NCBI GenBank assembly: GCA_006503475.1
Contig: RSEH01000022.1
Span: 62,001-126,000, forward strand
From: Stentor roeselii
Lineage: Eukaryota; Ciliophora; Heterotrichea; Heterotrichida; Stentoridae
Direction of reading: 5' to 3'
DNA: 64,000 nt
In this document: piece by piece, positions 23,355 through 64,000 of the stretch
How the letters are laid out: each line of letters starts with the position of its first letter
Numbering within the stretch: position 1 is the first letter of the stretch
The notes under the pieces: generated by a model
The model's input: the letters and a program-made list of their open reading frames with translations, nothing else
Told to the model about the DNA's origin: nothing
Database searches by the model: none
Program-made: the position numbers and the translations under genes

Positions 23355-23793
23355 ACCACTCCATCAATTAATTAGTTTAGTTACTAATATCAAAAAATTC
23401 TCTTAAACAAAAGATTTACCTATCCATAAATTCTATAAATCATCTCCAAATATCCTAATTCCATCCAAAGTTAATCATAATTAAAATTCTTCATTTAACA
23501 ATTTTCACTTTTCCAAATCTTCTTTCAATTACACAAAAAACCTAACAAAAATCCCTTCTTCCAAATAATAAAACTAAAAATAACTTTCTTCCATTAACAC
23601 AAAAAACCTAATCAAAATCCCTTCTTCCAAATAATAAAAGTAAAAAAAACTTTTTTCCATTAACACAAAAACCTAATAAAAAATCCCTTCTTCCTACTAC
23701 AAAAATTAAAACAAACAATTCATAAAAAAAAAAAATCCTCATTTCCAAACCCCAGCCATCCTCAATTCAAAACAAAATAAACAAATTCAAAAA
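23355..23793. other. A/C-rich spacer with a short minisatellite
   Basis: 439 bp, almost free of G on the plus strand. It contains the 66-bp repeat annotated separately and the leader of the next plus-strand gene. No ORF is supported. Confidence 0.6.
23531..23696. repeat. 66-bp tandem repeat, about 2.5 copies
   Basis: The string ATCCCTTCTTCC begins at 23551, 23617 and 23683, an exact period of 66. Flanking ACACAAAAAACCTAA and AAATAATAAAA tracts repeat with it. The third copy is partial. It lies upstream of a gene start, outside coding sequence. Confidence 0.85.
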
Positions 23794-24795
23794 ATGAAAC
23801 CAAAGTCTTCATTCGATTCAAACTTCATATCAAGAGTAGAGCACCTAATGGAAAGTACCCGTCCCCCTTATCGTCACAACACGCCCTTATTAAACCCAAA
23901 GCCATCATCATCAATATCCGAGAATTCCTGCATATCTTCTCAGAGTTTCTACGAAAAGTACAGCAAAATATGGTCAAGCCGTTCATTTCCTCGATCATCT
24001 CTGTTGTACCTGAGTGTACTTCACAAGAAACTTCAAATAAAATATAAAAGTCAAGCCTTCCGAAAGTTAAGCCGAGCGCAAGACGACCCTTTATCAGTCA
24101 CGCGATGCATGAACTGTGGCCATGCAGCTTTGACGCTTCTCACAAGTTCGACTCAAGAAAGACTTTCTCCGAGGTTCATGTCAAAAATCAAGTCAATTCT
24201 GCCGAAAAGTAATAAAAATCAGAGAAAATCAGAAAAAAGTAACTCTTCAACTAAACGGAAAAGTAATGATTCGGTTGTTATTCATAGTGAAAAGGGACGA
24301 TTTGATGAGTTTTCTCCTGAACAAAAAATGAAAATCAATGATTTAAGTGAAATTGCACCCAATCCTTACTTTTTAAGCTCGCTTAGCTCGCCTGAACAAG
24401 TACGAGAAAGAAAAACAGCTCGAGATGAGATTTCATTTGAGATTAGTCGAGATTCTTTTGAAGTACGCAAAGAAATGACTAACCTACCCAAACAACTTGT
24501 CCCCAAACTGCGTCTCCGTCCACCATCCAGAAAAGACGCCAGAATCTTTCAAGACTTCGAAAGAAAATTCAAAAAATTATCTCAAAACCAAATCAGATGG
24601 GCTTTTCAGCTAATTTTAAAAACAACTCCTTCTGAAAAAACAAAACAAAAAGATCAAGTCTTTCAAGGTATAAAAAAAAACATCACAAACAGCAAAAAAA
24701 CCGCTTTTAAAATTCTTCACTCAAGACTCGAAAAGTTCCTATTCCGTCGAAAAATGCAAGGATTTTACGCGATTTCTGAAATTTTGTACAGATAA
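23794..24795 (+). CDS. Basic protein of unknown function
   Basis: 333 aa, ATG at 23794 in an A-rich context typical of starts here. It is strongly basic and serine-rich. Three short stretches share an aromatic/basic helical look (KYKSQAFRKLSRA, QIRWAFQLI, RKMQGFYAISEIL), loosely like AFxxL/W centrin-binding repeats, but the match is weak. A CMNCGHAAL stretch near residue 107 holds the only close cysteine pair. No family is recognised. The next gene follows 58 nt downstream on the same strand. Confidence 0.6.
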   Translation: MKPKSSFDSNFISRVEHLMESTRPPYRHNTPLLNPKPSSSISENSCISSQSFYEKYSKIWSSRSFPRSSLLYLSVLHKKLQIKYKSQAFRKLSRAQDDPLSVTRCMNCGHAALTLLTSSTQERLSPRFMSKIKSILPKSNKNQRKSEKSNSSTKRKSNDSVVIHSEKGRFDEFSPEQKMKINDLSEIAPNPYFLSSLSSPEQVRERKTARDEISFEISRDSFEVRKEMTNLPKQLVPKLRLRPPSRKDARIFQDFERKFKKLSQNQIRWAFQLILKTTPSEKTKQKDQVFQGIKKNITNSKKTAFKILHSRLEKFLFRRKMQGFYAISEILYR

Positions 24796-24853
24796 TTCAT
24801 TAAACCATCTAGATTAATCCTCCCAAAATCAAAAAATTCTCACTTCAATAAAA

Positions 24854-26032
24854 ATGGACCTACCAGGTTGCAACATCGACTTAAAAGTCCAAGAAAACTA
24901 TTCAGATCTTTTACGTCTTCGTCGAGAAATGCATGAAAATCCTGAACTTTTATACGATTTGCCTAAAACTCGCGAAATTATATTAAATTACTTATCAGGA
25001 CTAGACATTGAAGTGCTTCCAGTCGTTGGAGAGTCAGGCATCGTTGCTCAAATAACTGGAGAAGGTCCTTGTATATTGTTTCGTGCTGATATGGACGCGT
25101 TGAGTATCAGTGAAACCACTTCTTCACCTTTCAAGTCGAAGAATCAAGGAAGAATGCACGCTTGTGGGCATGATGGACATATGGCCATGCTCTTGGTCGC
25201 TGCTAAAGTCCTTGCTCAGGAAAGGGCTTTGCTGAGAGGATCTGTTAAATTTGTTTTTCAACCTGCGGAAGAAGGAGGGCATGGGTCGAAAGCTATGATT
25301 CAGGACTTGGATTATCCTGTTCTCAAGAATCCTGAGGTTCAGCAGGTCTTTGGAATACATATTACTAATGGAGTTGCTTTAGGGGATTTTGTTGCTTCTC
25401 CGAAATATGCTTCTTGTAATAGTGACTATTTTTTTATTGATGTGGTTGGGAAAGGAGGACATGCATCTGCACCTTACTTGACTAGGGATCCTATCATTGC
25501 AGGGACTCATCTAGTAATGGCCCTTCAAACAATAGTCTCACGAAACATCGAGCCCTACCGTCAAGCAGTTCTAAGTGTAACAATGCTAAACTCCGGAGAA
25601 GTATTCAACGCAATTCCCGATAAATGCACAATAAACGGTACAATCCGTACCTTCGAAAACGAGTCAAAAGACCTGATCGAAAAAAGAATCCTAGATCTCT
25701 GTGCAGGTATCGAAAGTGGATTCAACTGCCAAGTAAACTGCAAATTTACTCATTATTACAACCCAACAATAAACGACCCAGAAAGTGTTCAAAGAACAGT
25801 CGAAGCTTTTCGAAAAGTATGTCCAAACTCAAATCACGGAACAATATCTCCAATGATAGCTGAAGACTTTTTTTACTTCACAGATGAAAAACCAGGATGT
25901 TTCATGATGCTCGGCACTGGGACTGACCAGTTAAGCCAGCCTCTGCACAGCTCGAGTTTTGACTTTGATGAAAGAGGTTTGTTGATTGGAGCTTCTTATT
26001 GGGTGCAACTTGCGAAAGATATTCTTAAGTAA
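24854..26032 (+). CDS. M20-family amidohydrolase (IAA-amino acid / N-acyl amino acid hydrolase type)
   Basis: 392 aa, ATG at 24854. A zinc (or manganese) dependent hydrolase cleaving N-acyl or aminobenzoyl amino acids. Seen: the RREMHENPEL start, RADMDAL at 77-83, metal ligands C104 and H106 in HACGHDGH (102-109), the PAEE glutamates at 139-140, H169 in GIHI, the dimerisation-domain GKGGHASAPY motif, and a final histidine in LHSSSFDFDE near 364. Length and order match bacterial hippurate hydrolases and plant ILR1-like enzymes. There is no signal peptide, so it is probably cytosolic. The substrate is not known. Confidence 0.93.
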   Translation: MDLPGCNIDLKVQENYSDLLRLRREMHENPELLYDLPKTREIILNYLSGLDIEVLPVVGESGIVAQITGEGPCILFRADMDALSISETTSSPFKSKNQGRMHACGHDGHMAMLLVAAKVLAQERALLRGSVKFVFQPAEEGGHGSKAMIQDLDYPVLKNPEVQQVFGIHITNGVALGDFVASPKYASCNSDYFFIDVVGKGGHASAPYLTRDPIIAGTHLVMALQTIVSRNIEPYRQAVLSVTMLNSGEVFNAIPDKCTINGTIRTFENESKDLIEKRILDLCAGIESGFNCQVNCKFTHYYNPTINDPESVQRTVEAFRKVCPNSNHGTISPMIAEDFFYFTDEKPGCFMMLGTGTDQLSQPLHSSSFDFDERGLLIGASYWVQLAKDILK

Positions 26033-26142: not shown

Positions 26143-27762
26143 TTAGTTTTCGAATAATTGAAATAACTTCGACTCGAACACAGAAACGAAAAAATCTTTA
26201 TCAGCTTTGATTGATTTTTTATCGATGATTTCCTTGTTGATTTGAAAGTCTAAGATGTTTTTACTGATGCAGAGATTTTGCAAGCTGTTGATAACCCACA
26301 GGTTAAATTTATGAACTTGTTTAATGATCCTGGTCGTGCATTTTTCCTGTTCTTCATTAGGGATAAAACAGAGGGTCCTTCTAAAGACTCTGAAATACTT
26401 CCTAACAAGTGACCTGAGATGAAAAGATTTCGGTTTGAAGATATTTTCACATTCTCCTCTCCTCTTAACTTCTTTATTATCCAGGTCAACAAGCCAAAAA
26501 TTAGATTTTTTCAATATTTTCAGTTTTTCATCAACAGTTCCAACAACAAAGCCACTCCAATTTTCAAGTTCCGCCTTGTTGCACCTGGTAAGAAGAGGAA
26601 CAAGAGGCAATCTCCACTTAAAAGGCTCTAATAAACAATTCAAAGCAAAGACTGAACTAGTCACAAGGTCTACATTTTTACTGAAAAGGACTACTCGCCG
26701 CTCTTGAATCACTGCAAGGTACACCTTGCTTAAGAGTTTTGAACCTAAAGCTGAAAAAAGAACTGGACAAAACCATTGATGGTCTAAACTGCTCAGGTTT
26801 TGAGGAAATTCGTATTCGATTGACTCGACTGAGTCAAGTGAGATCTGGATTGAAAGACTTTCTTCTGATAAGGAATGACTAAGGTAGGAGTAGTACTTGC
26901 TTAGAAGAGATAACTCTTCACATGTTACGATGTCTTCCAGGATTAACTTTGAAAAATCACCACTTTCCATGAAGGTTGAGGAAGAATCGCAACGAGTTGT
27001 TCGCTTTAAGTCAAGAAGCCTGTTTAATACACCGAAATGTAACTCAAAACATGGCCAGATGCTTAATAAACAGTAGCATACCGGAATCATGCAATTTATA
27101 TTATGCTCTGTTACCCCCAGGTCGTTAAAGAGCACAAAGCAAGCGTATATTTGCTCATCGTCTACTTTAAACTGAGTGACATAGCTGTTACCGTCTCTAT
27201 AATGAGACTGATAAATAATTTCACTGACTTGATTAACCAAACTATCCCTAAACCCAAGTTCATCAAAAAAAATCCCATACGGAAACGCAAATTCAATAAT
27301 TTTTTCCTTACTTTTCACCTCCAAATTTTTATCTTCAGGAAACGAAAACAAAATCTCTCCTCTAAGATCTTTTAAAACTTTTCCATTCCGTTGTACCAAA
27401 GACACAACATGAAAGCTCAAAAAAAAATTAGGTTCTTTAGAATAACAATCCGAGCAATTTTCATACAAAACTTCAGAATCAAATTCTTTAGTAAACATTT
27501 TCTTCAAAGACGACGACCTAGAAATCTGTGAATAAGAATTGCTAGAAAGATTCAAGTTTTCCTGAATATAAAAGCAAGAGTCTCTCGAATTAACCTGATA
27601 AAGTTCTTCTAAACAAGCTTCAAGTTGTGAAATACGTTCAATCTTTTTACAATTCTCATTTCGATAGAACTTCAAAGAGTCCTTCAGTGTTTTGATTTGT
27701 TTTCTCATTTTCTGATTTTCCTTCAAATACTCGAAATACAATGCTGAGGGAGGACTCGACAT
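26143..27762 (-). CDS. DENN-domain protein (putative Rab GEF)
   Basis: 539 aa, ATG at 27762. Residues 10-55 form a short coiled coil. From about 115 the protein reads as a DENN module: an upstream part (FFLSFHVVSLVQRNG, then FAFPYGIFF), and a core with the LAVIQERRVVLFSKN helix-strand and SVFALNCLLEPFKWRLPLVPLL, close to the 'LL.P..W...iPvLP' hallmark of cDENN. DENN proteins activate Rab GTPases by nucleotide exchange, so a role with endomembranes is likely; which Rab is unknown. It ends 110 nt from the convergent M20 gene and starts 28 nt downstream of the FAM21 stop, on the same strand. Confidence 0.8.
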   Translation of the reverse strand: MSSPPSALYFEYLKENQKMRKQIKTLKDSLKFYRNENCKKIERISQLEACLEELYQVNSRDSCFYIQENLNLSSNSYSQISRSSSLKKMFTKEFDSEVLYENCSDCYSKEPNFFLSFHVVSLVQRNGKVLKDLRGEILFSFPEDKNLEVKSKEKIIEFAFPYGIFFDELGFRDSLVNQVSEIIYQSHYRDGNSYVTQFKVDDEQIYACFVLFNDLGVTEHNINCMIPVCYCLLSIWPCFELHFGVLNRLLDLKRTTRCDSSSTFMESGDFSKLILEDIVTCEELSLLSKYYSYLSHSLSEESLSIQISLDSVESIEYEFPQNLSSLDHQWFCPVLFSALGSKLLSKVYLAVIQERRVVLFSKNVDLVTSSVFALNCLLEPFKWRLPLVPLLTRCNKAELENWSGFVVGTVDEKLKILKKSNFWLVDLDNKEVKRRGECENIFKPKSFHLRSLVRKYFRVFRRTLCFIPNEEQEKCTTRIIKQVHKFNLWVINSLQNLCISKNILDFQINKEIIDKKSIKADKDFFVSVFESKLFQLFEN

Positions 27763-27790: not shown

Positions 27791-30430
27791 CTAATCCTCA
27801 TCGAATAGACTTCCACGATTTCTTCTTCCAGAAACTGATTCTTTCGCTGCGGGTTTGGAAGGTCTAAAGGAAAGTTCTTCGTCGTCGTCATCGAAGAGGC
27901 TTGGTCTTGGTTTTGTTTTCGTTTCTTCTACTTTAAGAGTTGTTTTCTCAGCACCTCGAAGGTCGCCTAGGCCGAGTCCTGAGTCTTTTTTTAAGATATT
28001 TGAAGGGGCAGTACTTTTTTTTTCTCCTAGTCTTGGAAGTGGAGGGTTTACTTGCTTTGGACTTGAAGCGGAAACTCCCATCAACGGGTCTTCTGAAAAT
28101 GATGGAAGAGACTGCTTTGGAGCTTCTGATGCCTTCGGCTTTAAGAATGGGTTTCCTGAAGAGCTCGCTCCGCTCGCTTTGAAAAATGTACCTTTTGGCT
28201 TCACCTCGGAATCTTCTGCGAAGTTGTCGAAGTCTTCTGTTAGGTCTTTTGTATTACGGTCACGCATTGGTCGTGATAAAGCTGCTTCGTTTGAAACCTC
28301 GGCGGGACGGTCAACTCTTGCAGGAGGTGGACCGCCTAGCACTGGCATCGGAATCGACTTCTGAATCTCTTTAATCGAAGGCCTTGATTCTTGCTTGGCT
28401 GGGGACTCGCTGATAGTCGGAAGTCGAAAACCTCCAGAAAGAGGATCATCAGACTGGACCGACGGCTTAGGCTTTTCACTAGTCTTGGCTGAAAACATGA
28501 ACGGATTCCCTTCTTTTGACTGTCCTGCATCTTTTTTAGGAGCAGGGTCAGTTTTAAACAAAAACGGATTTTCTACAGTTGTTTTTCCCAATTTTTTCTT
28601 CGCCAGGTCAGAATTTAACAGCAGGTCTGCCGTGTCTTTATCATCATCATCAATAAAGTTAAAAAGACCTTCCGCCCTTGTTTTTTTTGGCTCATTTTTC
28701 ACATTTTTCGATTTATCTTCTTCAGGAAGGTCGAAAAGACCTGAGAAGTTTTTTTTGTCTTTTGTGGGTTTGCTTGATGGTCTGAAAAGAGTATCGATTT
28801 CTTCGTCTTCCGTGATATTTGGAAGGAATTGGCCTGTTTTTTTTATTTCTTCTGTTTTTACTGCTGGCTTTGATGGGGGAGGCTGCTGAGAAGCCTGGGT
28901 TATCTTGGGAGGAGCTGGAGGGGCTGGAGGGGCTGAATGGCTTGGAGGAGCTGGAGGGGCCTGAGTCCGCGGTTGAACTGGAGGAGTCACTTGTGCTGGA
29001 CTGTAAGGATTTGGAACTGAGTTTTGGTAGTCATCACTTTGCTGATATGGATCAGACTCTGATTTTGGAGGGTCTGGACGTCGGATCATTCCTGCTCCTA
29101 GAATTCCTGCGAGTTGCTTTCTTTTATCTTCTAATGTCATCTCTTCTGGACGTTTTAATGGCTCTTCTGGAATTGATGTTTCATAGGATTGTAGCTCTGG
29201 AGTTGGCAGAGGGACGTTTTGTTGTGGGTTGCTTGGTGGTGCTGGTGGAGCTGGTGGAACTGGTTGAGTACGTTGACTTGGCGGAGCTGGAGGCCCTGAG
29301 TTTTGTTTCGGCGGAGGAGGGGGCGGGCCTGAGTTTTGTTTCGGAGGAGGCGGAGCTGTGTTCTGCTTGGGCGGAGGAGGAGGAGGTGGTAGTCCTAAGG
29401 CTTTAGATTCATCAGTTAGAACACCTCTCACTGACAGATCACCTTTAACATCTCCGTCAATAATTGCCTTACGATGTTCTAAAGTCGCTGCCAAACCTTT
29501 CTGGAAATTGTTGAATTCTCCTCCAGCTTGAACTGCAGGTGGTGGAGGAGGAGCGTTAGACTTAGGAGGGGGCGGGGGTGGAGGCGGCTTTGATTGAGGA
29601 GGGGGTGGAGGAGGAGGTGGAGCTTTCGACTGATTATTCGTTGGAGGTGGAATAGGCGGAGCCGTCTTCTGCATAGGTGGTGGGACAGGAGGGGCATAAG
29701 CCGGTCCCCCCACAGAGCCCATGGGACTTTCTTGTATTTTCGGTGCATCTTTCGCTTCAAACACAGTAGTAAAAGCTTCGTCATTATTCTCTAGCTTCTG
29801 CTCATCTTCATCAAATAGTCCAATCCAGGGATCGTGAAAGAAATAAGAAGTTCCAATGATATGGGGAAGCTTTTTTACTGTTCCTCGGAAGACCTGACTT
29901 CCAATTGAACTCAGAGAGACACCATCATCACTTGCTCCATCTTTCATTAGCTCTTCAACTTTAAGGCCTTTTAAAGCCATTTGGATGGCTTTTTGGTGCT
30001 TCGGAAGCAAGGTTTGTTCACGTTTTTCTTGTGATTGGACTTTTTCCATTCGAGCAGCTGATAAAGTCGTCGTCTGTCTTTTCTCTGCAGGGACAGAATT
30101 TTGCTGGTCAGGCTCAACCGGTTTAGAAGTTTCTGGAGTGACTTCAGGGATGATCTAAGTAAAAAATACATTAGCAACAAACTGAGAAGAAGCCAAGTTT
30201 GTCAGTTCATTGAAAGCACAGCTGAGTTGAACAGTGGTTCCAGTGGTGTACTTTGTGAGTTCTGATAAATCATTTTGGATTTTCAAGGACTTCTCAATAA
30301 TCCTTTCTGCAAATCCTTCAATAAGATTGAAAAGCTGATTAAAACTTACTTTTTCATCAGACTGGACGTCCCATCTGAGTTTTTCATCTTCGAGCAGCTT
30401 TTTCCAGATACTCATTTTTATATTCACCAT
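27791..30430 (-). CDS. WASHC2: WASH complex subunit FAM21 (WASHC2) homologue, two 15-nt introns
   Basis: About 869 aa after removing introns 30155-30169 and 30335-30349. An alternative ATG at 30415 sits in the more usual A-rich context. The N-terminal helical head matches FAM21 (RWDVQSDEK then LFNLIEGFAERIIEK, and NLASSQFVAN), followed by KGLKVEEL and LPHIIGTSYFF, equivalent to the conserved LPYLIGS region. The rest is a disordered tail with LFa-type acidic motifs (GLFDLPEED, GLFNFIDDDD, NPFLF, SLFDDDDEE, GSLFDED) that in other species bind retromer and capping protein. Unusually it carries long proline runs at about 120-400. It acts on endosomes with the WASH complex. Confidence 0.85.
30155..30169 (-). 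other. 15-nt intron in the FAM21 gene
   Basis: GTATTTTTTACTTAG on the minus strand. Unspliced it ends the N-terminal frame with TAG. Spliced, NLASSQFVAN runs into IIPEVTPE and on to the rest of FAM21. A at position 10. Confidence 0.93.
30335..30349 (-). other. 15-nt intron without stop in the FAM21 gene
   Basis: GTAAGTTTTAATCAG on the minus strand, in frame and stop-free, so invisible to simple ORF reading. Removing five residues makes the spacing from the conserved Trp to the LFNLIEGF helix equal to that in animal FAM21. It fits the local consensus, with A at position 10. Confidence 0.8.
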
Positions 30431-30638: not shown

Positions 30639-31943
30639 TCAATCAAGAAAACTATTACTTGATTTGATACTAATTCGGCTCTTGGACCTGAAAAATCTTC
30701 TAAACTTTCCCAACTTCTTTAAAATATCATCAGCAATCTGACTAGAATCCTCAATTCTCATCATCATTTTCGAGTAACTTCTAAATTTCAAAGTCTCTTC
30801 AGTAAATGTTTTTTTTTTTAACCCCATCATCATTTCAGCTTGATACAAAGCAAGAGCGAATCCTTTGATTTTATCCTTGTTATACAAAAACTTCTCCTGA
30901 AAGGTATTAAAGATGATTTTTCCACATTCTCGATGTGCTAAAATCGCTCGATATGAGTGTTCTTCTTTAGGTGTAAGTTTCAAAAAGCTTCGAATTGTGA
31001 CGAAAGTAAGTGACAAGCTGATTCCTCCCCAAATAATAGCGAAGAAAACAACGACCCTTCCGAAGAGTGAGTAAGGAACACGGTCGCCGTAGCCGACAGT
31101 GGTCATGGTGACGAGGACAAGCCACATGGAATTTTCAATGCTGTCTAAATCTTGAAGGTGCAAAGGACGTTCAAAAAGGCGAATTCCGATACCAAAGACG
31201 ATAATTCCAGGGATTAACAAGAAGAAGACAATGATTATCACTGGATGAGTTGCTGCAATGCACCTGTAAGAAAAACTTACTGTGATTGGAATTCGATGTT
31301 CTTGACATATTCTTCTTGCCATTGGTTTTTCGTATTTTCCGTAAGCACAAATTGTGAGAATCAGGTAAAAAAGCCTGAAAAACATGATAAAATAAAGAAA
31401 TTCTTCGAGGTAGTAACATATTTCAAACCTTTCGTATAAAATATATTGAGGGACTCGTATTTTTGTACTTATTCCTGGGTAGGGGAAAATTAGGTTCAGG
31501 AAAATGACTAGCCAGGTATATCTTGTTTTTAGATACTCTTTTAAGTGTCTTTTACGCACGAAGGAAACTAGCTCTAGGTATGAGTACATCACTGGAGGAG
31601 GTAGCTCTTCAAAGGTGTATGGGTAGTATTGATCCCATCTGAAGTAGAAATGCTTGTATGCTAGTTCTAAGGCTATTGCGATAAATGAAAGCAGAAGGAC
31701 TGGAAATCTGTAGATAAATGTGTTCTCTTGGATTATTCTGCAATCGTCGTAGGAACGGTTAGGGTCGTAGCTGTGTTCGTATGAAATCGTTGCAGGAATC
31801 AAGGCTAAGCAAGAAGAAAGTGCTCCGAGAAACCTGAATCTTCTCCACAAAACATAAAACCGATTATACTTCCAAATCTTCCTTTTCCTCCTTCTCGTTG
31901 CAACACTCATACTACTGACATTGTCCAGAAGGCTAGTATTCAT
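30639..31943 (-). CDS. Potassium channel, six-TM, SK-like
   Basis: 434 aa, ATG at 31943. The selectivity filter TTVGYGD is at 281-287, preceded by the pore helix ENSMWLVLVTM and followed by a last membrane helix (VVVFFAIIWGGISLSLTF). Upstream hydrophobic segments lie near 35-52, 78-96, 143-156, 178-200 and 233-256. No arginine ladder typical of a voltage sensor is seen, and the pore helix resembles small-conductance Ca-activated channels. The basic C-terminus (about 320-434) could bind calmodulin, but no IQ motif is clear. In ciliates such channels shape membrane potential and ciliary reversal; that role here is inference. Confidence 0.88.
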   Translation of the reverse strand: MNTSLLDNVSSMSVATRRRKRKIWKYNRFYVLWRRFRFLGALSSCLALIPATISYEHSYDPNRSYDDCRIIQENTFIYRFPVLLLSFIAIALELAYKHFYFRWDQYYPYTFEELPPPVMYSYLELVSFVRKRHLKEYLKTRYTWLVIFLNLIFPYPGISTKIRVPQYILYERFEICYYLEEFLYFIMFFRLFYLILTICAYGKYEKPMARRICQEHRIPITVSFSYRCIAATHPVIIIVFFLLIPGIIVFGIGIRLFERPLHLQDLDSIENSMWLVLVTMTTVGYGDRVPYSLFGRVVVFFAIIWGGISLSLTFVTIRSFLKLTPKEEHSYRAILAHRECGKIIFNTFQEKFLYNKDKIKGFALALYQAEMMMGLKKKTFTEETLKFRSYSKMMMRIEDSSQIADDILKKLGKFRRFFRSKSRISIKSSNSFLD

Positions 31944-33806: not shown

Positions 33807-33880
33807 TTATGGAGAATAACCTGCACAAGCCAAAAAAAAATCAGTTCCATTATCGACATTTGAAAACCCTCTAATTTAAA

Positions 33881-36045: not shown

Positions 36046-36062
36046 GATGGGGGGGTTTATAA

Positions 36063-56076: not shown

Positions 56077-56096
56077 GTTAGGAGGGATTTAATTAA

Positions 56097-56386: not shown

Positions 56387-58720
56387 TCACATAAATGATT
56401 TTATAAACAATTGAATTGTCTTGAGCAAACAAACTATCAAATATTTAAGACTTACTTCATTACTATTAAAAGTATTCAAACTTTCAAGTTTGTTTCTCAG
56501 TTTAACAATTTCTTCATTGAGCTCTTTGATCTCCAACTTTAGTTTATTGTTTTTCGACTTAAACTTAGAAGACTCTCCTTGAATAAAGTAAACAGTTGAT
56601 TTTTCTAATGATAAATTCGTGGTCAGGACTAAAATTTCATCTTCTTTTGAACTAATTTCTTTTCTCAATTCTGCTATTTTCCCTTCGCAATCATTTAAAC
56701 GGCATTCAAGTTGTCCAACATAATTAGATAGATTTTCTTTTTCTGTTTTTAAAGAAATTACCAAAGAATTTGCTTTTTGGTCTGAAATATTTTCGTAAAT
56801 CGACTTTTCTGAAGTTATTTTCGAGATCTGAGACAAATTACAAGAGTTTTCAGTGAGTTTTGGCCTGTTTATTCCGTATTCCCTGATGATTTTTTCCTTT
56901 ACCTCGATAAGACTTTTCAGGTTCAAAATATGATTTTCAAGATTTTTTATCTTTTCTTCTGATTCTTCTTCTGAGTTTTGGTTGCTTCTTGATTTGAAAT
57001 GCAAAAACTCTTGATTTTCCCTTTCTCTACAAATTTTAGCGATTTCTGCATCTTTTTTGATGATGAGAGCTTTTGCATATTTTAGCTCATTTTCATAAAA
57101 TTCCTGATTTTGAGTATCTTTTTCTTTCGAGAGTTTTGCAATTTCAGCTTCTTTTTTAATAATCAAATTTTTTGCATATTTTAGTTCGTTTTGAAGTGAG
57201 AGACTATCTTTATCAACGATGATTCTGTTTTTATTTTGAAGGTCTTCAATTTTAGTGATGTAGTCTTGCTGAAGTTTTTTCCAGTTTTCATAAGAATCAG
57301 CACATTTTTCATGATTTTTTTCCAGATTCAAAAATTTTTTTGAAGTTGATTCAAGTTCGTTGGCTAAAGCATTGTTTTCCTTTATCAGAAAAATATTTTT
57401 ATCATTTGTTTCTTTTATTTGAAAGATTAAGTCCTTAACTTTCTCTTTTCCTTCACTGCAGATTTTTTCAATTTCTTCATTTTTCAAGTTTTTTTGGGAA
57501 ATTTCGCTTTTAAGATTGAGAATTTCTAGTTGTAGATTATTTAAAGTGCCCAATAACTCACTTTTAGCTTGTTCTTCACGAACTAAAAGGCTTTCAAGTT
57601 TACTTTTTTCTATAGAAATGTTGTCAATTTGGTTTTGAAGCAATACAGCTTTTGTTTCACTTTGCAAGAGAAGGTCTTTTAAATGGAAAACAGGAAAAAC
57701 TTCAACACTTTTTTCATGACACAAGCGAAATCGAGGGATTTTTGTGTTTTTTTTTAATACCTGAGGCTGTGGACAGGGAGTAGTCGCTCTATTACTTCCT
57801 TTCCCAAAAGATGCAGATTTTTTATGTTTTTCCTTAATTTTTTCTTTTGATTCCTTCATCTGAAGTTCTTTAAACTGACCACTAAGTACATCAAAAGCTT
57901 TGCACTTTTCCCAGAACTTTTCCTGTACTTCCTGATAATTTTCTTGAATAATCTTAAAATTTTTTTCCAGAATTGAATTTTTTTCTATTAATTCTTCATT
58001 TTCCTTTTCACTGAAAAGTTTTTCCTGTGTGAATCTTGTGACAATCATCAAATCTTCATCAGTTTGATTTTTCCAGTCATCCAGGAGTTCTTTTTCCTTT
58101 AAAACCTCCTCAAGTTTCAACTTAATCAATGCGATTTCTTTTCCAGATTCATTTTTTACCATATTAAGTTCATTTCTAAGGTCCATTGAAAGTTTATTCA
58201 ATTCACTTATTTTATTTTCTTTAAAAATGTAATCTTTCGACATTTTTGATAGTTCTTCAATCATCTTTTTATTTTCTTTTCTTGATTTTTTTAACTCGGT
58301 TTCAAGAATTTGCTGTTTTTTCGGGTCGATTGATTGAAATGTTTGAAGTTTGTATTTCAGGTCTTGAATCAACATGTTGGCTTCGTTGATTCTGCTTTTT
58401 AGGTCTTTTAACTCGAAAGAGTCTTGAGGTGAGACTTCGCTGATTCCTGGTTTAAAGACAAGAAGCCAGATTTTGTTGTTAAGATTTGTAAAAATTTCCC
58501 AAAGTTTCGACTTTGCATCGGTTTTTTGTTTGTTTTCAAATAATTCAAAAATGTCTGTCTGGGTCTCTGCTAAGATTTCAGAAAACTTTGAAAAACCTTC
58601 AATGCTTTTTTCGTTGTTTTCTATTTGGCTTCGGGGTTTGAGTTTTGCAAGTCTTGAATCGTGACTTTGTTGTCTGGTTTTAGGAAGGATAGGACTTTTG
58701 AGTTTTTCAAATGATTTCAT
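56387..58720 (-). CDS. Long coiled-coil protein
   Basis: 777 aa, ATG at 58720. Almost entirely coiled coil from about residue 100 to 750, rich in Glu, Lys, Leu and Asn. A short non-coiled basic segment (about 300-330, KKSASFGKGSNRATTPCP) interrupts it. Near 505-575 two neighbouring blocks of about 32 residues are near copies (NELKYAKNLIIKKEAEIAKL and NELKYAKALIIKKDAEIAKI), a recent internal duplication. It is likely structural, for example cortical or centrosomal; no specific family is claimed. Confidence 0.75.
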   Translation of the reverse strand: MKSFEKLKSPILPKTRQQSHDSRLAKLKPRSQIENNEKSIEGFSKFSEILAETQTDIFELFENKQKTDAKSKLWEIFTNLNNKIWLLVFKPGISEVSPQDSFELKDLKSRINEANMLIQDLKYKLQTFQSIDPKKQQILETELKKSRKENKKMIEELSKMSKDYIFKENKISELNKLSMDLRNELNMVKNESGKEIALIKLKLEEVLKEKELLDDWKNQTDEDLMIVTRFTQEKLFSEKENEELIEKNSILEKNFKIIQENYQEVQEKFWEKCKAFDVLSGQFKELQMKESKEKIKEKHKKSASFGKGSNRATTPCPQPQVLKKNTKIPRFRLCHEKSVEVFPVFHLKDLLLQSETKAVLLQNQIDNISIEKSKLESLLVREEQAKSELLGTLNNLQLEILNLKSEISQKNLKNEEIEKICSEGKEKVKDLIFQIKETNDKNIFLIKENNALANELESTSKKFLNLEKNHEKCADSYENWKKLQQDYITKIEDLQNKNRIIVDKDSLSLQNELKYAKNLIIKKEAEIAKLSKEKDTQNQEFYENELKYAKALIIKKDAEIAKICRERENQEFLHFKSRSNQNSEEESEEKIKNLENHILNLKSLIEVKEKIIREYGINRPKLTENSCNLSQISKITSEKSIYENISDQKANSLVISLKTEKENLSNYVGQLECRLNDCEGKIAELRKEISSKEDEILVLTTNLSLEKSTVYFIQGESSKFKSKNNKLKLEIKELNEEIVKLRNKLESLNTFNSNEVSLKYLIVCLLKTIQLFIKSFM

Positions 58721-58768
58721 ATTTAAATAACTATTCTAACCCAAATCATATAATATAAAATAACTAAC

Positions 58769-59800
58769 TTAAGCATTTGAAACACTTCTTCCCACCTTCT
58801 TCACATCTCCTAAAGTTTCCTTAACCATTTTCAAAGTTTTTTTAGCCTCATTATTCTGTTTGATAATCAAGCCATTAACAATATTTCTATTCCTCATAAT
58901 AAGTCTATTCGAGTCAACTTCCCGATGTTTAATTTGTTCATTCCTATCCCTCTGAATCCTTTTAAGTAAAGCAGCTAAAGCCAACTGTTGTTGCTGTCTA
59001 AGTTTTTTTTCCTTAGCTTCAATAATTCTCTTAACAATAGCTTCATTTTGTTCATCCTCAACACTTTCAAGCTGATCAGCTTTGGCTTTAATCTTTTCCG
59101 CTTCTTCATAAGCCTTTTGTTTAGCAAGAGTCAGTTGTTTTTGCCTAAGTCCAAGTAGTTCTTTTGAATGTTTTACTTTTTTTTGCGCTTCAGTTGTGAC
59201 TTTTTCCATCATTTCTTGATACTCAGAGATATGTTTTTCTTTCAATTTTTCTAAACTTTTATAAGCAGTGGCTTCATATTCAGCCATGTAACTGTCCCAT
59301 GCCTTGTTGAAGTCTTCTAGTTGGTTAAACTGAGCTTCTTCTAAACTGACTAGTTCTTTTTCTTGTGTTTCTCTTGTTTGTTGCAGTTGTCGCTCGGTTT
59401 CTTTCTTTTTTAACTCGTCGAATTTTAGTTTGGCTTTTTTTGCTTCTTGGTAGTTTCCTTCTTCTTGACACTTTAACCGGTAATCTTCGAGTAACTGTAG
59501 AAAGTCAAGGACTTTATTTTCGGCTTGGACTGCATCTGACTTCTCGTCTTCTTCTGGAGATTCAAGCTCTTTTTCCACGTCGGATAACATCTGTAAAAAT
59601 TCGTTGAAGCCGATTTTGCCGTCATGGTTTGGGTCGATATCATCAAGTAAAGTCTTAGCTTTTGAAGGGTCTTTTCCGAGTTGCTCAAAAACTTGCTCCA
59701 TGTCTTGAATGTCAATAGCTCCACTTTTGTCTTTGTCAAAAATATCAAAAAGGGTTTTAAAATTTTCAATTTCTTCAGTTGAATATCCTAACTCGGCCAT
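58769..59800 (-). CDS. EF-hand protein with long coiled coil
   Basis: 343 aa, ATG at 59800. Two EF-hands at the N-terminus with complete calcium loops (DKDKSGAIDIQD near 22-33 and DPNHDGKIGFNE near 57-68), like one lobe of calmodulin or centrin. The rest, from about 90, is a continuous Lys/Glu/Gln-rich coiled coil ending in a basic tail. It is probably a calcium-responsive cytoskeletal protein. It lies 17 nt downstream of the AK8 stop-to-start junction, same strand, and 48 nt from the next coiled-coil gene. Confidence 0.88.
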   Translation of the reverse strand: MAELGYSTEEIENFKTLFDIFDKDKSGAIDIQDMEQVFEQLGKDPSKAKTLLDDIDPNHDGKIGFNEFLQMLSDVEKELESPEEDEKSDAVQAENKVLDFLQLLEDYRLKCQEEGNYQEAKKAKLKFDELKKKETERQLQQTRETQEKELVSLEEAQFNQLEDFNKAWDSYMAEYEATAYKSLEKLKEKHISEYQEMMEKVTTEAQKKVKHSKELLGLRQKQLTLAKQKAYEEAEKIKAKADQLESVEDEQNEAIVKRIIEAKEKKLRQQQQLALAALLKRIQRDRNEQIKHREVDSNRLIMRNRNIVNGLIIKQNNEAKKTLKMVKETLGDVKKVGRSVSNA

Positions 59801-59817: not shown

Positions 59818-61200
59818 CTAAGGACCTTCGTCGTGTTTTATTGATTTTTCAATGGCTTCACTTGCCATGTCGCAGATAGTAGAGAGGGGCTGATCACTTT
59901 TGACTGAAATTGAGATTCCTGAATATTCGCTGTGGATCTTGATTAGGCTTTCTTTGTAGCTTGAGAGACGTTTTTTTACTACTTCGTGAGTGTCTTCGTT
60001 TAACTGGATTAGTCTTGATCTGATGTCTTCGTCTTCTGGAAGGTGTAAAATACTGTAAAATTCACCTGTTGTTGGATCAAGTCGACGCTTTTCAGTCCTT
60101 TCGTAGACTAGGTTATCAGGACAGTCTAAAAAGATAACATGAGTCGGTAACACTTTAAATTCCCGCATGTATTGAAGCTGGTCTACAGTTTTAGGATAGC
60201 CATCTAACACCCAACCATTAATCCTACAATCAGGCTCTTGAAGTCTATTCATCACAAGCTGAGCAATCAAGTAGTCCGGAACACGTTCACCCGTATTAAT
60301 TGTGGCAGCAGCATTTCTTCCAGCTTCCGTCTTTTTATTAATCTGGTCTCTCAACAACTGATTAGTAGAAATAAAGGTCAAGCCATACTTTTCATGTAGG
60401 CTCTTAGCCAATGAAGTCCTTCCACTTCCAGGCGGTCCAAGTACAATAACACAAGGTGGTTTCTGAGGTCCCTTAGACCTTCCCTTGGCCAAATAAATCT
60501 TAAAAATCCGATTAGAAAGTTCAGGTATATCTTCACTAGATTCAACTTCATGAACCTGAAATCCATAAGCCGCCCTGACACCATTCATATGATACTCAAA
60601 CTCCTGCCAGGCCCTACTAATAACCGGCTTCTGATTCTCAGGCCGATGACTAGAAAGTTCGCTGATTTTTTCAGTTGCTCCTAAATCAAACTCATTCCGA
60701 CTGGGCCTGATGAACACGACCCTATCAGGTATAACTCCCGCTCGTTGCAAGGCAAGACATTGCACCCTAGTCCTAGGAAAGCCTTCTAAAATATAACTAG
60801 CTTCTTTTTTCTCAAGCCCTTCAATCAAAGGCATCATAATCTCTAAAATAACTGAATCTGGAATGAAACTTCCTGTGTTCCAAGCGAATTGAATGGCTTC
60901 GAAATGCTTTCCTGATTTTTTCACTTCTGATTTCAAATGATCCTGAAGAAAGACTTTCTCGATGTTGAATCGAGAACTCAACTCACGAGCGACTTGTCGA
61001 CGTTTATGCCCGATGCCGCCTACTAAGAATAAACGTCTTCGAGGCTTCGCCTCGAGCTTGTGGATCAGGTAGTCCAGGGGGTGGGGAGGACGGTCGATCA
61101 GCAGTTCTTTCAGTAGGGAGTCGAAGAGGTCGTAGATTTTGTACTCTTCTAAAAATTTTTCGACGGAATCTTGGAATTCTTGCTTCTTTGCTAGGTCCAT
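59818..61200 (-). CDS. AK8: Adenylate kinase 8 (two adenylate-kinase domains)
   Basis: 460 aa, ATG at 61200. The N-terminus has a DPY30/RII-like helix pair (YKIYDLFDSLLKELLID then PHPLDYLI). The first kinase domain has a broken P-loop (GGIGHKR at 61-67, no GKS/T) but keeps EGFPRT. The second has a near-normal P-loop (LGPPGSGRT at 254-262, with Arg in place of the usual Lys), DGYPKT, and a LID segment (KRRLDPTTGEFY). This is the layout of AK8, which in animals and algae supplies and balances ATP/ADP/AMP in cilia. Whether either domain is active is uncertain because both P-loops deviate. Confidence 0.9.
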   Translation of the reverse strand: MDLAKKQEFQDSVEKFLEEYKIYDLFDSLLKELLIDRPPHPLDYLIHKLEAKPRRRLFLVGGIGHKRRQVARELSSRFNIEKVFLQDHLKSEVKKSGKHFEAIQFAWNTGSFIPDSVILEIMMPLIEGLEKKEASYILEGFPRTRVQCLALQRAGVIPDRVVFIRPSRNEFDLGATEKISELSSHRPENQKPVISRAWQEFEYHMNGVRAAYGFQVHEVESSEDIPELSNRIFKIYLAKGRSKGPQKPPCVIVLGPPGSGRTSLAKSLHEKYGLTFISTNQLLRDQINKKTEAGRNAAATINTGERVPDYLIAQLVMNRLQEPDCRINGWVLDGYPKTVDQLQYMREFKVLPTHVIFLDCPDNLVYERTEKRRLDPTTGEFYSILHLPEDEDIRSRLIQLNEDTHEVVKKRLSSYKESLIKIHSEYSGISISVKSDQPLSTICDMASEAIEKSIKHDEGP

Positions 61201-61336
61201 AACTGTTATTATATTAGAAAGGTTTATTTGGAACTTTTGGGAATGGGGGATTTTGGAAGATTAGGGAAGTTTTTGAGGAATTTTTTTGGAGTTTTGGGTT
61301 TGGATTATAGGTTTTGTTTAATAGATTATTATAAAC

Positions 61337-64000
61337 ATGCTCAGTATGCAAGTGCAAGTCAACCTTATTCACAAGACTATGAAAGTACATTTAGAGCTGG
61401 GTAATCCTGTTGTTTGTAGTGATCATCATTGTAAAAGTTTAACGAAAATTAATAAAGAGATTTTGGAAAGATCTACAAATGAAAAACTTGATCTTCAACA
61501 ATTTTTGGATGGTATTATTTTTCAAAGGATTTCAATACCTAATACTCATATTTTAGAGTACTTGAGTATGGTTTCCGTGAATCTTAATGATGAGGCTCAG
61601 AAAAATATTCATAAAGATAGACCTGATGTTCAGATGTTTTTATCAGCTATTTCGAAGTTGGTTGATGATTATTCATTTTCTTCTTTATTTCTGTGTGATT
61701 CTATGTTTCCGAATGAAGGTCCAAGATCGAGCTTGAAAGGGATTCAATACTCAGCCTTTAAATTAATCTACTTTCTCGAGTTAACAGAAAACTATAAATT
61801 CATAGAAAATTTAATATCAAAAAACATCAACGAAAATCAAGAATTCTTCACAAACCTCAGCCAAACAATATGCAATTATTTAGAAGCTCACTTAGGAGAA
61901 ATAACAATAGTCGATGAAAATTGTTGCCTATACATCCGAATCTTAACAAAACTCATAGAGTTAAAAACAATAAACCCTCATGATATCTCCAACAACTTAG
62001 AAGTCCTAAACTGGTCAACCTTCGCCATAGAGTTCAACAGTTTATTCGGAAGTCTTCTCGGAGTCAAAACTTTACCTAAAAGCGAAAACTTGCTTTTAGA
62101 GACACATATGTTCCCAAGAGACCCAATCCGAGACTTCATCTGCAAAGTTAACCAAAAAGAGGTAAAAGAAGCGAAAAGGCTGTTAAATTCTAAACATTTT
62201 TATTATATAACTGACTCAGTTAAAACTATTAAAACATTACTACGCGCTTTTCCTGAACAAACTTTGAAATTCCTGAAAAATCTTGTCAACCTTCATTTTG
62301 AGAAGTCAAAAATAAGCTTTGATGAACGAATAAATCCATCATTTCCGCAGTTTAGCGATAGTTTTTCAGTAAATTTACTGAGTGTTTTCTTGGAACTTTC
62401 TGCACCTTTTCTTGATATGAACAGTGATAAACCTCAAAAAATTCGTCCAGATCATTTAAAGCTTGACAAATCTTTTGAGAAACTTTTAGGCACTTCTATA
62501 ATTCGTGGAAAAACTACTGTTTTTGAGGAAAAAGTGTTGGAAGGGACGATTAGCATTTATTTTTACTGCAATTTGTTTATGTTAAGGTTCGGTTGGACTA
62601 CTATAAAGAAATTAACGAGATTTTTAAAAATCCAAATGAAAAAACAAATACAAAGTCCTATATATCTCAATAAAAATGAATACAATAACAAAATATTAGA
62701 ATCTTACTACACAATTATTTTTGAAGAAACTAGAAATAAAAAGATTTTTAACTTTTACATATTTTTCTGTGAATTGCTTTTGAATTGGAACAAATTCGAA
62801 GGAAGTCTTCCTCTTACCCAGCCAAACATCGCACTTTATTACATTCCTGAGTACATCTTGAAAGACTTGGCAGGGTTCATCATATATTTAACTTATTATG
62901 ATCACTTCTCTATTTTTACAGTACATGTCGATGGTCCCATCGACAAGTTACTCACCTTTACAACAGTCCTGATATCAAGTAGAGACCTATTTCCAAATCT
63001 AAAAGTAATCAACAAATTCGTCAGAATCTTCATAATTTTATTCAAGAAAAAAGTCCTACTTGACTATTCCGACATCTTTAAAACAAACCAAACAGCGAGA
63101 AAATACTTGCTGGTCTCTTTACTCATTTACTACTCCCAGGTGGAAAAGTATCATTTTTACGGAGTTTCCCGTTCAAAACTAGAATTTCGTAAAAATATCT
63201 GCACTTTACTAAAAAATCTCAGCAGGGTTCAGTTTTTCACGAATCAGTTCAAAAAACTTCAGCATTCCGAAGAATTCAGCAAGTTTTTGAATTATCTTTT
63301 TGATGAGATCACAACTTGCTTCGAAGAAGGTCTGAATTACATAAAAAAGTACAAAGACTTCCAAGATAAAAACAAGGTTCAAAATGAATACATCGACCAA
63401 TTAAACGAAGCGAAAAGTCTTACAAGTTTTTTTTGGACTCACATAAATAAAAGTCTTTCAGTTATTCTAATGTTCAGTAGAATGAAACTAGAAATCATGA
63501 TTTCTGAAATCTTTGGGAAAAGATTAGCAGCTTTTATTAATAATTTTTTGAAAACTTTCAATGGCCCAAATTTTCACAAGATTAAAATAGATGACCCTGC
63601 AAGTGTGAACTTTAAACCTAAAAAAACATTAGAAAGAATCTTAGAAATTTATGTTTCATTTATTGACAATCAAGACTTTATCAACCATATCATTGGAGAC
63701 TCTCGGTCTTTTGACATCAAGATCTTCGAAAAGACTTTTAAGATATTGTCTAAAAAGTTGATGGTCAGCACAGTTCTTCATGACCAGTTCTTGAAACTAA
63801 TAAAAAAGTTGCAGATGTCTTCAAGTAAAAGATTAGTCCTCATCGAAAATGCTCCTAAAAACTTCTTCTGTGGTCTTTCAGAAGAAATCATGACTCATCC
63901 AGTCGAACTGCCTTCAGGTGTTATCATCGACAGATCTTCCTTAGACCGTCATTTACTAACCAGCAACTTCGACCCTTACACCAAAGTAGAACTTTCAGAA
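61337..64000 (+). CDS. UFD2: UFD2/UBE4-type U-box ubiquitin ligase (3' end outside window)
   Basis: The frame is open from ATG at 61337 to the right edge, 888 aa visible with no stop, and was followed by eye throughout. The body matches the UFD2 core: FNSLFGSLLGVKTLPKS, TYYIPEYILKDL-type segment YYIPEYILKDLAGFIIYL, and LERILEIYVSF. The visible C-terminus enters a U-box (FFCGLSEEIMTHPVELPSG, IIDRSSLDRHLLTS, DPYTKVELSE). UFD2 extends ubiquitin chains (E4) on proteins passed on by Cdc48/p97 for degradation. Only a short part of the U-box should be missing. It starts 136 nt from the divergent AK8 gene. Confidence 0.9.
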   Translation, partial: MLSMQVQVNLIHKTMKVHLELGNPVVCSDHHCKSLTKINKEILERSTNEKLDLQQFLDGIIFQRISIPNTHILEYLSMVSVNLNDEAQKNIHKDRPDVQMFLSAISKLVDDYSFSSLFLCDSMFPNEGPRSSLKGIQYSAFKLIYFLELTENYKFIENLISKNINENQEFFTNLSQTICNYLEAHLGEITIVDENCCLYIRILTKLIELKTINPHDISNNLEVLNWSTFAIEFNSLFGSLLGVKTLPKSENLLLETHMFPRDPIRDFICKVNQKEVKEAKRLLNSKHFYYITDSVKTIKTLLRAFPEQTLKFLKNLVNLHFEKSKISFDERINPSFPQFSDSFSVNLLSVFLELSAPFLDMNSDKPQKIRPDHLKLDKSFEKLLGTSIIRGKTTVFEEKVLEGTISIYFYCNLFMLRFGWTTIKKLTRFLKIQMKKQIQSPIYLNKNEYNNKILESYYTIIFEETRNKKIFNFYIFFCELLLNWNKFEGSLPLTQPNIALYYIPEYILKDLAGFIIYLTYYDHFSIFTVHVDGPIDKLLTFTTVLISSRDLFPNLKVINKFVRIFIILFKKKVLLDYSDIFKTNQTARKYLLVSLLIYYSQVEKYHFYGVSRSKLEFRKNICTLLKNLSRVQFFTNQFKKLQHSEEFSKFLNYLFDEITTCFEEGLNYIKKYKDFQDKNKVQNEYIDQLNEAKSLTSFFWTHINKSLSVILMFSRMKLEIMISEIFGKRLAAFINNFLKTFNGPNFHKIKIDDPASVNFKPKKTLERILEIYVSFIDNQDFINHIIGDSRSFDIKIFEKTFKILSKKLMVSTVLHDQFLKLIKKLQMSSSKRLVLIENAPKNFFCGLSEEIMTHPVELPSGVIIDRSSLDRHLLTSNFDPYTKVELSE

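Follow-up and report, generated by a model that had tools for sequence, protein, structure and literature searches.

Alternating A+C-rich and G+T-rich blocks along Stentor roeselii DNA and their possible origin at fixed germline sites

The plus strand of Stentor roeselii DNA alternates between A+C-rich and G+T-rich blocks, across genes and spacers, about every half kilobase, and this raises the question of what process could write such a pattern. We analysed a 64-kb stretch (contig RSEH01000022.1, positions 62,001 to 126,000; hereafter the window), in which a two-state HMM (A+C vs. G+T) gained 488 nats over a single state, as compared to only 8.1 and 4.3 nats in two 3-mer shuffles. The original prediction had located the pattern at 23355-64000; it is present there, but it is not confined to that part, being found across the entire window and in every other interior stretch read. 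It was seen again in two further 100-kb stretches (C40:1-100000 and C59:1-100000) and in 19 open frames from 17 additional contigs. Flips every few hundred bases had been proposed, with nine hand counts of A+C per 60-base line, all of them exact on recount. The flips are real and the HMM-fitted mean block lengths were 358 and 330 bp, but the half-waves are longer, nearer 500-600 bp, with a wavelength of about 1.1-1.6 kb. Hereafter, S denotes a GT-to-AC flip and U an AC-to-GT flip, both on the plus strand. The A+C block expected at about 24.48-24.9 kb was found between the S flip at 24462 and the U flip at 25043; the G+T block expected at about 25.9-26.45 kb was found as well, though weaker, from 25916 to about 26.4 kb, and the minus-strand genes at 431-5965 and 9297-11549 flip likewise. 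Nucleosome-linked mutation, one of the causes put forward, is unlikely, since spectral power shows no clear excess at 140-200 bp.

Autocorrelation was determined at 65,813 synonymous sites in 119 ORFs of at least 150 aa, taken from the window and the two 100-kb stretches, and was compared to 50 within-gene synonymous shuffles (sd about 0.001). For synonymous third bases it was 0.076 at <30 bp, crossed zero near 350 bp and was -0.030 at 500-600 bp and -0.004 at 800-1000 bp, with anticorrelation spanning 400-800 bp. The shuffled codons gave 0.010 at <30 bp and 0.004 at 500-600 bp; the signal is real and shuffling destroys it. No such correlation wave was observed in E. coli and phage G, used as control genomes. 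The same course was followed within plus genes, within minus genes and between genes on opposite strands. In this last class the curve was alike beyond 30 bp (0.039 at 30-60 bp, 0.081 at 60-100 bp and -0.036 at 600-700 bp), the <30 bp bin giving -0.044 from 304 pairs only. C/T sites were coupled to A/G sites (YxR 0.036-0.039 at <100 bp and -0.035 at 500-600 bp). The wave is independent of gene direction and protein. That it is a property of the DNA strand, carried largely by synonymous choice, had been claimed before and is borne out by the opposite-strand curves together with the shuffles.

Flips were called at z of at least 3.5 in synonymous sites over 264 kb, a procedure by which stretches poor in such sites cannot be called. 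It yielded 111 S and 113 U, against means of 9.3 and 9.0, respectively, in 20 shuffles; those in the window are listed in Table 1. When flips were located by 2-fold codons and skew was measured at independent 4-fold codons, the GC-skew jump within ±100 bp was 0.67 ± 0.08 at 107 S and 0.20 ± 0.07 at 111 U. The wave is a sawtooth, with sharp S and gradual U flips. The skewness of the keto step was -0.24 to -0.30 (±0.07-0.09) at the 100-200 bp scale, -0.04 ± 0.03 at 50 bp and -0.06 ± 0.08 at 400 bp, and it turned positive at the 300-400 bp scale in the window taken alone. At 30-100 bp the S profile fits a simulated ramp of about 60 bp half-width, and the innermost 30 bp are flatter than simulated (ratio 0.08 vs. 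0.26). The centre is near neutral: in the two 30-bp bins adjoining S the keto residual was 0.04 and -0.02, the GC skew 0.05 and -0.20 (se 0.11) and the TA skew 0.03 and 0.05, values to which locating error contributes. Skew is strong at 30-300 bp from S and about zero by 500-600 bp. On the strand entering S, 4-fold C goes down to 0.08-0.10 (0.17 at 600 bp) and A, within 75-300 bp, to 0.24-0.25 (0.29 at 600 bp); T climbs to 0.50 and G stays near 0.17-0.21. Some individual intervals, such as 54280-56371 with its sharp-looking U, depart from the mean shape. Among the codon boxes, GGN has more A and less T in keto surroundings and GAR is nearly static; the CGN box likewise deviates from a pure mutational rule. 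The difference between sharp S and gradual U is the most informative feature of the pattern; it was absent from the original prediction, as were the spacer preference of S and break resection as a cause.

Table 1. Flips called in the window (positions on the plus strand).
Flip	Position	Interval	z	Remark
S	3387	3327..3447	7.8	within ORF 431-5965 (-)
S	4551	4491..4611	4.3	
S	5028	4968..5088	4.5	
S	8035	7975..8095	3.6	weak
S	11179	11119..11239	5.5	within chitin-synthase-like ORF (-)
S	12177	12117..12237	4.2	
S	13672	13612..13732	3.9	
S	22515	22455..22575	4.8	
S	24462	24402..24522	4.0	opens the A+C block predicted earlier
S	25513	25453..25573	7.4	within M20 peptidase gene (domain match)
S	27199	27139..27259	5.6	within DENN gene (domain match)
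S	28293	28233..28353	4.5	
S	29265	29205..29325	3.9	
S	31843	31783..31903	5.9	
S	33757	33697..33817	4.3	
S	35302	35242..35362	4.2	
S	36065	36005..36125	3.9	
S	38882	38822..38942	6.1	close to LRR gene start (domain match)
S	40187	40127..40247	8.3	strongest in the window; within LRR gene
S	41781	41721..41841	5.7	
S	42601	42541..42661	4.8	
S	43762	43702..43822	6.3	
S	45635	45575..45695	5.0	
S	46605	46545..46665	3.7	
S	49794	49734..49854	4.1	
S	52045	51985..52105	4.0	
S	54942	54882..55002	5.0	
S	56023	55963..56083	3.9	
S	58716	58656..58776	5.5	
S	60136	60076..60196	6.2	
S	61747	61687..61807	8.1	
U (gradual), part 1	1235, 2654, 4016, 5537, 8357, 9898, 10590, 12997		at least 3.5	
U (gradual), part 2	22112, 25043, 25916, 27801, 28742, 30912, 32289, 33360		at least 3.5	
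U (gradual), part 3	35731, 37244, 39417, 40881, 42179, 43062, 45163, 47599		at least 3.5	
U (gradual), part 4	50514, 52766, 53395, 55453, 58244, 59156, 60851, 62171		at least 3.5	

S flips prefer AT-rich DNA, and they prefer spacers whether the flanking genes are tandem, convergent or divergent. The blocks had been said to ignore both gene direction and gene ends; the former holds, as the opposite-strand curves are alike, but the latter does not, S being commoner in spacers longer than 60 bp. The mean step had an identical sign in tandem, convergent and divergent spacers (0.27 ± 0.05, 0.38 ± 0.11 and 0.21 ± 0.08, respectively). Since S occurs in spacers of all orientations with one step sign, which does not follow gene direction, gene transcription is rejected as the cause, and the earlier exclusion of transcription-coupled bias stands. 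No significant enrichment of tandem repeats was found at S (9 of 29 within 200 bp; null 0.27 ± 0.09). The sd of 300-bp means was 0.127 in internal non-coding DNA (134 windows), as compared to 0.139 overall (879 windows) and a binomial value of 0.058, and the non-coding wave is close to an additive per-base bias without clear motif. Next to telomeres the pattern is weak (sd 0.079; 75 windows in 15 stretches of 1.6 kb). Subtelomeric skews have been reported in Halteria, Nyctotherus and Oxytricha nanochromosomes, with deamination as a possible cause in Halteria (PMC7858049, PMC2633312), and resemble the Stentor pattern as strand-biased composition in macronuclear DNA. However, they lie at the ends (in Nyctotherus a purine skew over about the first 130 nt), whereas in Stentor the ends are nearly flat and the waves interior: no telomere-adjacent amino/keto bias was found in the first 300 bp of 16 telomeric ends (mean +0.047 amino, 10 of 16 amino, P 0.09).

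Our tentative preference is that the blocks are caused by recurrent germline breaks, with 5'-to-3' resection exposing C and A on 3' tails. The germline DNA would be broken repeatedly at each S, the simplest case being meiotic breaks of the Spo11 type in open AT-rich DNA, and 5'-to-3' resection would then extend some 600 bp to either side of the break. C (to T), and A to a lesser degree, would be lost from the 3' tails so exposed before these are copied back, and the strand running 5' to 3' into S would turn G+T-rich on both sides. The plus strand would then read G+T | A+C, with a sharp step at S and an effect waning with distance, and neighbouring S zones would meet at the gradual U flips. We infer from the pattern that S are candidate break sites, the germline (micronucleus) the probable venue and single-strand deamination the probable chemistry; the blocks could, with the same reserve, be the accumulated imprint of strand-specific mutation around fixed S sites. 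In Tetrahymena, mitotic germline mutation has been reported to be extremely low (PMC5585995), and therefore a rare mutagenic process could dominate.

The composition itself is consistent with resected breaks: at 4-fold sites C and A are altered on one side of S and G and T on the other, in the orientation of 3' tails. In the flanks of human meiotic hotspots the forward strand reportedly carries C>N and A>N changes and the reverse strand G>N and T>N, with single-stranded DNA on the forward strand at left and on the reverse at right, and the asymmetry is described as absent in the central ±100 bp (PMC7615360). Resected breaks in yeast are reported to give mostly 5'C-3'G switch clusters (PMC6786661). 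The signs at S match those of human meiotic hotspots: in the human and yeast cases, as here, C and A are lost on the 3' tail strand, mirrored on the other side, and in hotspots too the centre is near neutral and the range is hundreds of bases. The difference is that hotspots show rare new mutations, whereas in Stentor the asymmetry is fixed in the composition of all interior DNA read, and its sites recur every 1.3-1.6 kb. Profile searches of the genome gave one match to TP6A_N (Spo11/topo VI A) and two to the Rad51 family, at family level only. The GC rise expected from biased gene conversion, which is not universal, was absent, 4-fold GC being lowest near S (about 0.26-0.32 vs. 0.31-0.36 at 500-600 bp). 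This counts against the break reading, as do the codon boxes and single intervals that deviate, the positive step skewness in the window alone, the lack of significant tandem-repeat enrichment at S and the third tubulin pair described below. The tubulin copies L053/L054, also described below, count for it.

The signs at S fit yeast-type origins equally. As the main rival explanation, which we consider rather unlikely, S may be dense replication origins in open AT-rich DNA, the asymmetry arising locally from initiation (through melting, first error-prone synthesis and breaks) with about 600 bp reach and the yeast-like sign (leading strand A+C-rich). The leading strand is reported to be A+C-rich in S. 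cerevisiae, K. lactis and C. albicans, which gives GT|AC at origins as at S (PMC3459929), and at human constitutive origins a local mutational footprint has been reported that measures about 4 kb and has breaks in its middle (PMC9645720). The AT-richness of S and its preference for spacers of all orientations also suit origins. The replication skew sawtooth of yeast and human shares the sharp jump, the gradual return and the presence of GC and TA skew in coding and non-coding DNA, but its wavelength is tens of kb or more as compared to about 1.1-1.6 kb. Moreover, at yeast origins the GC skew reportedly jumps by 9% and takes about 20 kb to fade (PMC3459929), whereas here the jump is about 0.7 over 0.6 kb, without sign of long forks. 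If long forks reversed every 500-600 bp, nearly every S would have to fire nearly every cycle. Outward forks with the yeast sign would also leave telomere ends keto-rich on the inward-read strand, and the observed ends are nearly flat, the mean being slightly amino. Closely spaced replication starts, as first suggested, are therefore still live in a local form, but as ordinary long forks they are strained by the short reversals and the size of the jump. A GC-skew jump of 74%, fading within about 3 kb, has been reported at Candida albicans centromeres and argued to be non-fork (PMC3459929); it is likewise a very large local step of short range, but it sits at centromeres, whereas the Stentor jumps occur at very many sites along chromosome arms.

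A further explanation, which we regard as improbable, is that S are junctions of excised germline-limited sequences (IESs), so that the wave runs through the germline sequence, its sharp step being a scar left by the removal of a few hundred bases, or that excision-related breaks also occur in the germline there. We know of no IESs in Stentor roeselii, and a search of its genome with a PiggyBac-domain profile, run without positive control, gave no matches. The heterotrich Blepharisma has 10,778 + 29,021 IESs per 41-Mb somatic genome, about one per kb and slightly depleted in genes (PMC9942856, PMC9942806), and the density and spacer preference of S are similar. However, in simulations the S transition spans about ±60 bp rather than being exact, and IES excision is somatic, so no heritable mutation is expected.

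It is more doubtful still that germline non-coding transcription (e.g., bidirectional meiotic) starts at U and ends at S, with deamination of the displaced non-template strand. Starts diverging from U and ends converging on S would give the observed sign, and development-specific 24-nt small RNAs of Blepharisma are reported to map to coding, IES and other regions (PMC9942856). However, sharp ends and diffuse starts would be needed every 1.3-1.6 kb, and the starts would fall in coding, GC-richer DNA.

We give slightly less weight again to selection on codons, mRNA or DNA structure, rather than mutation, as the origin of the blocks. The GGN, CGN and GAR boxes, which break the pure mutational rule, speak for it, but the wave is about equally strong in internal non-coding DNA, where the bias is nearly additive and motif-free, and its plus-strand course is identical across genes of both directions. 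Against selection are also two tubulin copies (L053/L054) that are identical in 190 of 190 residues and opposite in third-base composition: they have 52 third-base differences, 40 of which are transitions, divided by strand direction 37 to 9 with 6 neutral. A third tubulin pair (L044/L053) gave only 45 vs. 34. Finally, chance or protein-composition fluctuation is refuted by the flat shuffles and controls and by the excess of S over shuffles, and has practically no probability left.

If the sample is typical, S sites genome-wide are of the order of 28,000-35,000. Returning to germline breaks and initiation, we suggest, with somewhat greater reserve, that the somatic sequence may preserve, at the level of single bases, a fossil map of these events at tens of thousands of fixed sites, at which strand-specific mutation, dominant over an otherwise very low rate, would set synonymous codon choice across the genome, and whose positions and resection lengths could be read from the sequence alone. 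Synonymous codon choice in Stentor roeselii depends strongly on the distance to hidden sites, beyond tRNAs and expression, and work on codon usage, dN/dS and gene finding in such ciliates could be misled. If S are breaks or origins, one assembly would suffice to chart, across the genome, a germline process for which micronuclear assays are very difficult, and, if true, a local DNA transaction would here have overwritten base composition to an extreme degree.

The alternation of A+C-rich (amino) and G+T-rich (keto) blocks along the plus strand, which the original prediction drew from hand counts of A+C per 60-base line, proved to be real. The counts were exact on recount in nine cases out of nine, and a two-state HMM gained 488 nats, the gain being 8.1 in one 3-mer shuffle and 4.3 in another. 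Overall, about 0.33 Mb of the 44.4-Mb assembly (522 contigs) was analysed, including three stretches that come from long contigs and were not randomly drawn (the window, which is C145:62001-126000, together with C40:1-100000 and C59:1-100000). ORFs were picked mechanically, longest first and ignoring introns, and the synonymous set came from 119 ORFs no shorter than 150 aa and consisted of 65,813 sites, each scored as keto or amino on the plus strand, with centring by codon box and by strand of the gene. The autocorrelation of these sites was 0.076 at less than 30 bp, reached zero near 350 bp, was -0.02 to -0.03 at 400-700 bp and returned to -0.004 at 800-1000 bp. Synonymous shuffles within genes gave only 0.010 declining to 0.004 and did not reproduce the blocks. 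C/T sites set against A/G sites gave a correlation curve of the same shape, and E. coli (50 kb) and phage G (50 kb) were flat under the same analysis. The wave was also found at 19 additional loci on 17 other contigs (8 from a kinase search and 11 from a tubulin search), analysed through their longest open frames, with values of 0.090 below 60 bp and -0.039 at 450-600 bp. No clear excess at nucleosome length was seen in the power spectrum.

The three stretches contain 128 ORFs that reach 120 aa, of which 73 stop at TAA, 34 at TAG and 20 at TGA, one being open; stops inside kinase matches were TAG or TAA and never TGA among the matches listed. This usage is compatible with a heterotrich that uses the standard code, such as Stentor. 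Features of the window located during the analysis are collected in the table.

Features located in the window
Feature	Position	Strand	Remarks
Chitin-synthase-like genes	6588-14435 and 21155-23351	- and +, respectively	four within 17 kb; Pfam search on two
Minisatellite in spacer	23520-23716		66-bp unit, 3 copies; A+C-rich, one strand type
Minisatellite in spacer	56095-56340		62-bp unit, 3.9 copies; G+T-rich, one strand type
ORF	51937-54270	-	bacterial-type response-regulator receiver, Ser/Thr kinase, DEP domain and DUF547

Protein composition as a cause was ruled out by two sets of related genes. The four chitin-synthase-like paralogues (6588-23351), which are 43-56% identical, disagree in their block patterns, the smoothed r of the six pairs being -0.28, 0.33, 0.28, -0.15, 0.56 and -0.08. 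A trio of genes related to them was observed on another contig (C91). The tubulin loci L044 and L054 are identical at 190 of 190 residues and at only 49.5% of third bases; their third bases differ at 92 places, with keto in L044 facing amino in L054 at 61 of these and the opposite arrangement at 21. Between L053 and L054 there are 52 third-base differences, 40 of which are transitions, with 37 vs. 9 in one direction, and between L044 and L053 there are 87 (45 vs. 34 by direction). The L044/L054 and L053/L054 patterns are what strand-coordinated transitions would leave. L053 (at the end of C201) and L054 (at the start of C305), which we take to be beta-like, are tubulin 5' parts truncated by the contig ends and 98.9% alike at the protein level over 190 codons; possibly, the assembly broke here in a repeated gene.

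A bias coupled to gene transcription was ruled out as well, in agreement with what had been claimed from the constant direction of transcription inside genes. Opposite-strand gene pairs gave a correlation much like that of same-strand pairs beyond 30 bp, and the left-to-right flank step had the same sign in tandem (0.27 ± 0.05, n=44), convergent (0.38 ± 0.11, n=14) and divergent spacers (0.21 ± 0.08, n=17), spacers being gaps of more than 60 and up to 1500 bp from one ORF of 150 aa or longer to the next, with longer gaps excluded. Gaps no longer than 60 bp (15 tandem, 12 convergent and 5 divergent), some of which are probably introns, gave no significant step.

The wave has the shape of a sawtooth. 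We distinguished GT-to-AC flips (S) and AC-to-GT flips (U), two classes that reverse complementing leaves unchanged. The distribution of keto steps was skewed by -0.24 to -0.30 at the 100-200 bp scale (bootstrap sd 0.07-0.09), which indicates that S is on average sharper than U; skewness was absent at the 50-bp and 400-bp scales, and within the window taken by itself its sign was positive at 300-400 bp. When 2-fold codons alone served to locate the flips and 4-fold codons to measure them, the GC-skew jump over ±100 bp was 0.67 ± 0.08 at S (107) and 0.20 ± 0.07 at U (111), and an earlier detection (93 S and 100 U) gave the same contrast. In comparison with simulations run through the same detector, S was best fitted by a ramp of about 60 bp half-width, with the innermost 30 bp flatter, and U was still rising at 220-300 bp. 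With all synonymous sites, 111 S were called at z 3.5 and 71 at z 4.5, whereas 20 shuffles averaged 9.3 and 1.6, respectively. The median S spacing was 1609 bp in this list, in which stretches poor in synonymous sites are uncallable, and 1280 bp in a list of 164 S that includes non-coding DNA; on the basis of these spacings, the genome would hold about 28,000-35,000 S sites, if the sample is typical. Block lengths from zero crossings were set aside, since that method merges weak blocks.

In a flip list detected partly from non-coding sites, S coincides with the lowest GC (about 0.33) and coding fraction (0.67-0.70), and U with the highest (about 0.39 and about 0.92, respectively). Many S lie inside ORFs, as at 3387, 25513 and 40187. 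A motif search yielded AT-rich words at S, slightly GC-rich words at U and nothing more.

At 4-fold sites on the strand running into S, C fell from 0.17 to 0.08-0.10, T rose up to 0.50 and G stayed at 0.17-0.21; A, which started from 0.29, was down to 0.24-0.25 at 75-300 bp. The keto strand of non-coding blocks contained A 0.297, C 0.065, G 0.228 and T 0.410. These shifts indicate that loss of C is the main component and loss of A a lesser one. Dinucleotide asymmetries in non-coding blocks were nearly additive, and words fitted an additive per-base bias fairly well. Exceptions among codon boxes (264 kb) were GGN, in which GGA rises and GGT drops in G+T-rich surroundings, CGN, in which T is lost in keto surroundings, and GAR (Glu), which hardly shifts; C preceded by G also shifted less. 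No clean deaminase context emerged, and the APOBEC2 Pfam family had no match in the genome, which leaves room for other deaminases.

The cause to which we tentatively give most credit, short of an even chance, is break resection. Where 3' single-stranded tails are repeatedly exposed to either side of a break, C and A should be lost in a strand-coordinated manner, in mirror image about a point and with an effect that fades within hundreds of bases. On our present reading of the part available, human meiotic hotspots have matching signs and a neutral centre (PMC7615360), and resected yeast breaks are described as showing mostly 5'C-3'G switches (PMC6786661, in part). One match to TP6A_N and two to the Rad51 family occur in the genome. 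Against resection, 4-fold GC near S is low and not raised, tandem repeats, looked for as break scars, are not significantly enriched at S, and some single intervals deviate from the mean sawtooth shape.

The chief rival, local mutagenesis at replication origins, is less probable, at something like a one-in-several prospect. Its sign is right, the yeast leading strand being A+C-rich, but in the passages available of the same source the jump at yeast origins amounts to 9% and takes about 20 kb to fade, and a fork origin of the much larger, 3-kb skew of Candida centromeres is denied on grounds of scale (PMC3459929). That argument holds here more strongly, so that only a local initiation footprint is a plausible origin version; such footprints have a precedent, as far as the part available goes, in human constitutive origins (PMC9645720). 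That S marks IES junctions is doubtful: IESs in Blepharisma are put at about one per kb and slightly depleted in genes (PMC9942856, in part), but the transition at S spans about ±60 bp, and an excision made in the soma would not be expected to pass to the next generation. Germline transcription is improbable, selection marginally more so, and chance is negligible; the remaining probability goes to causes not thought of.

Macronuclear chromosome-end processing is unsupported, as 16 telomere-adjacent stretches gave only a weak amino excess in the first 200 bp. Contig ends carry the telomere repeat (CCCTAACA)n, which Blepharisma also has according to the available part of PMC9942806. Telomere-adjacent DNA is nearly flat for the wave and about 25% GC: over 1.6 kb at the ends of 15 contigs (C5, C9, C11, C13, C26, C31, C36, C40, C48, C56, C57, C59, C64, C69 and C70), the wave was almost absent and mean GC was 23-29% per 100-bp bin.

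Skew sawtooths in general are already known. The ciliate skews described in the parts available of PMC7858049 and PMC2633312 are subtelomeric, two other ciliate genome papers have GC skew, in their available portions, solely as a plot track in a legend, and the Stentor intron paper mentions neither skew nor asymmetry nor strand bias. A partial survey of the literature, mainly titles and abstract openings, gave no kilobase-scale strand wave in any ciliate. To our knowledge, a sawtooth of about 1.1-1.6 kb wavelength and of this amplitude, running through all interior DNA sampled, is new.
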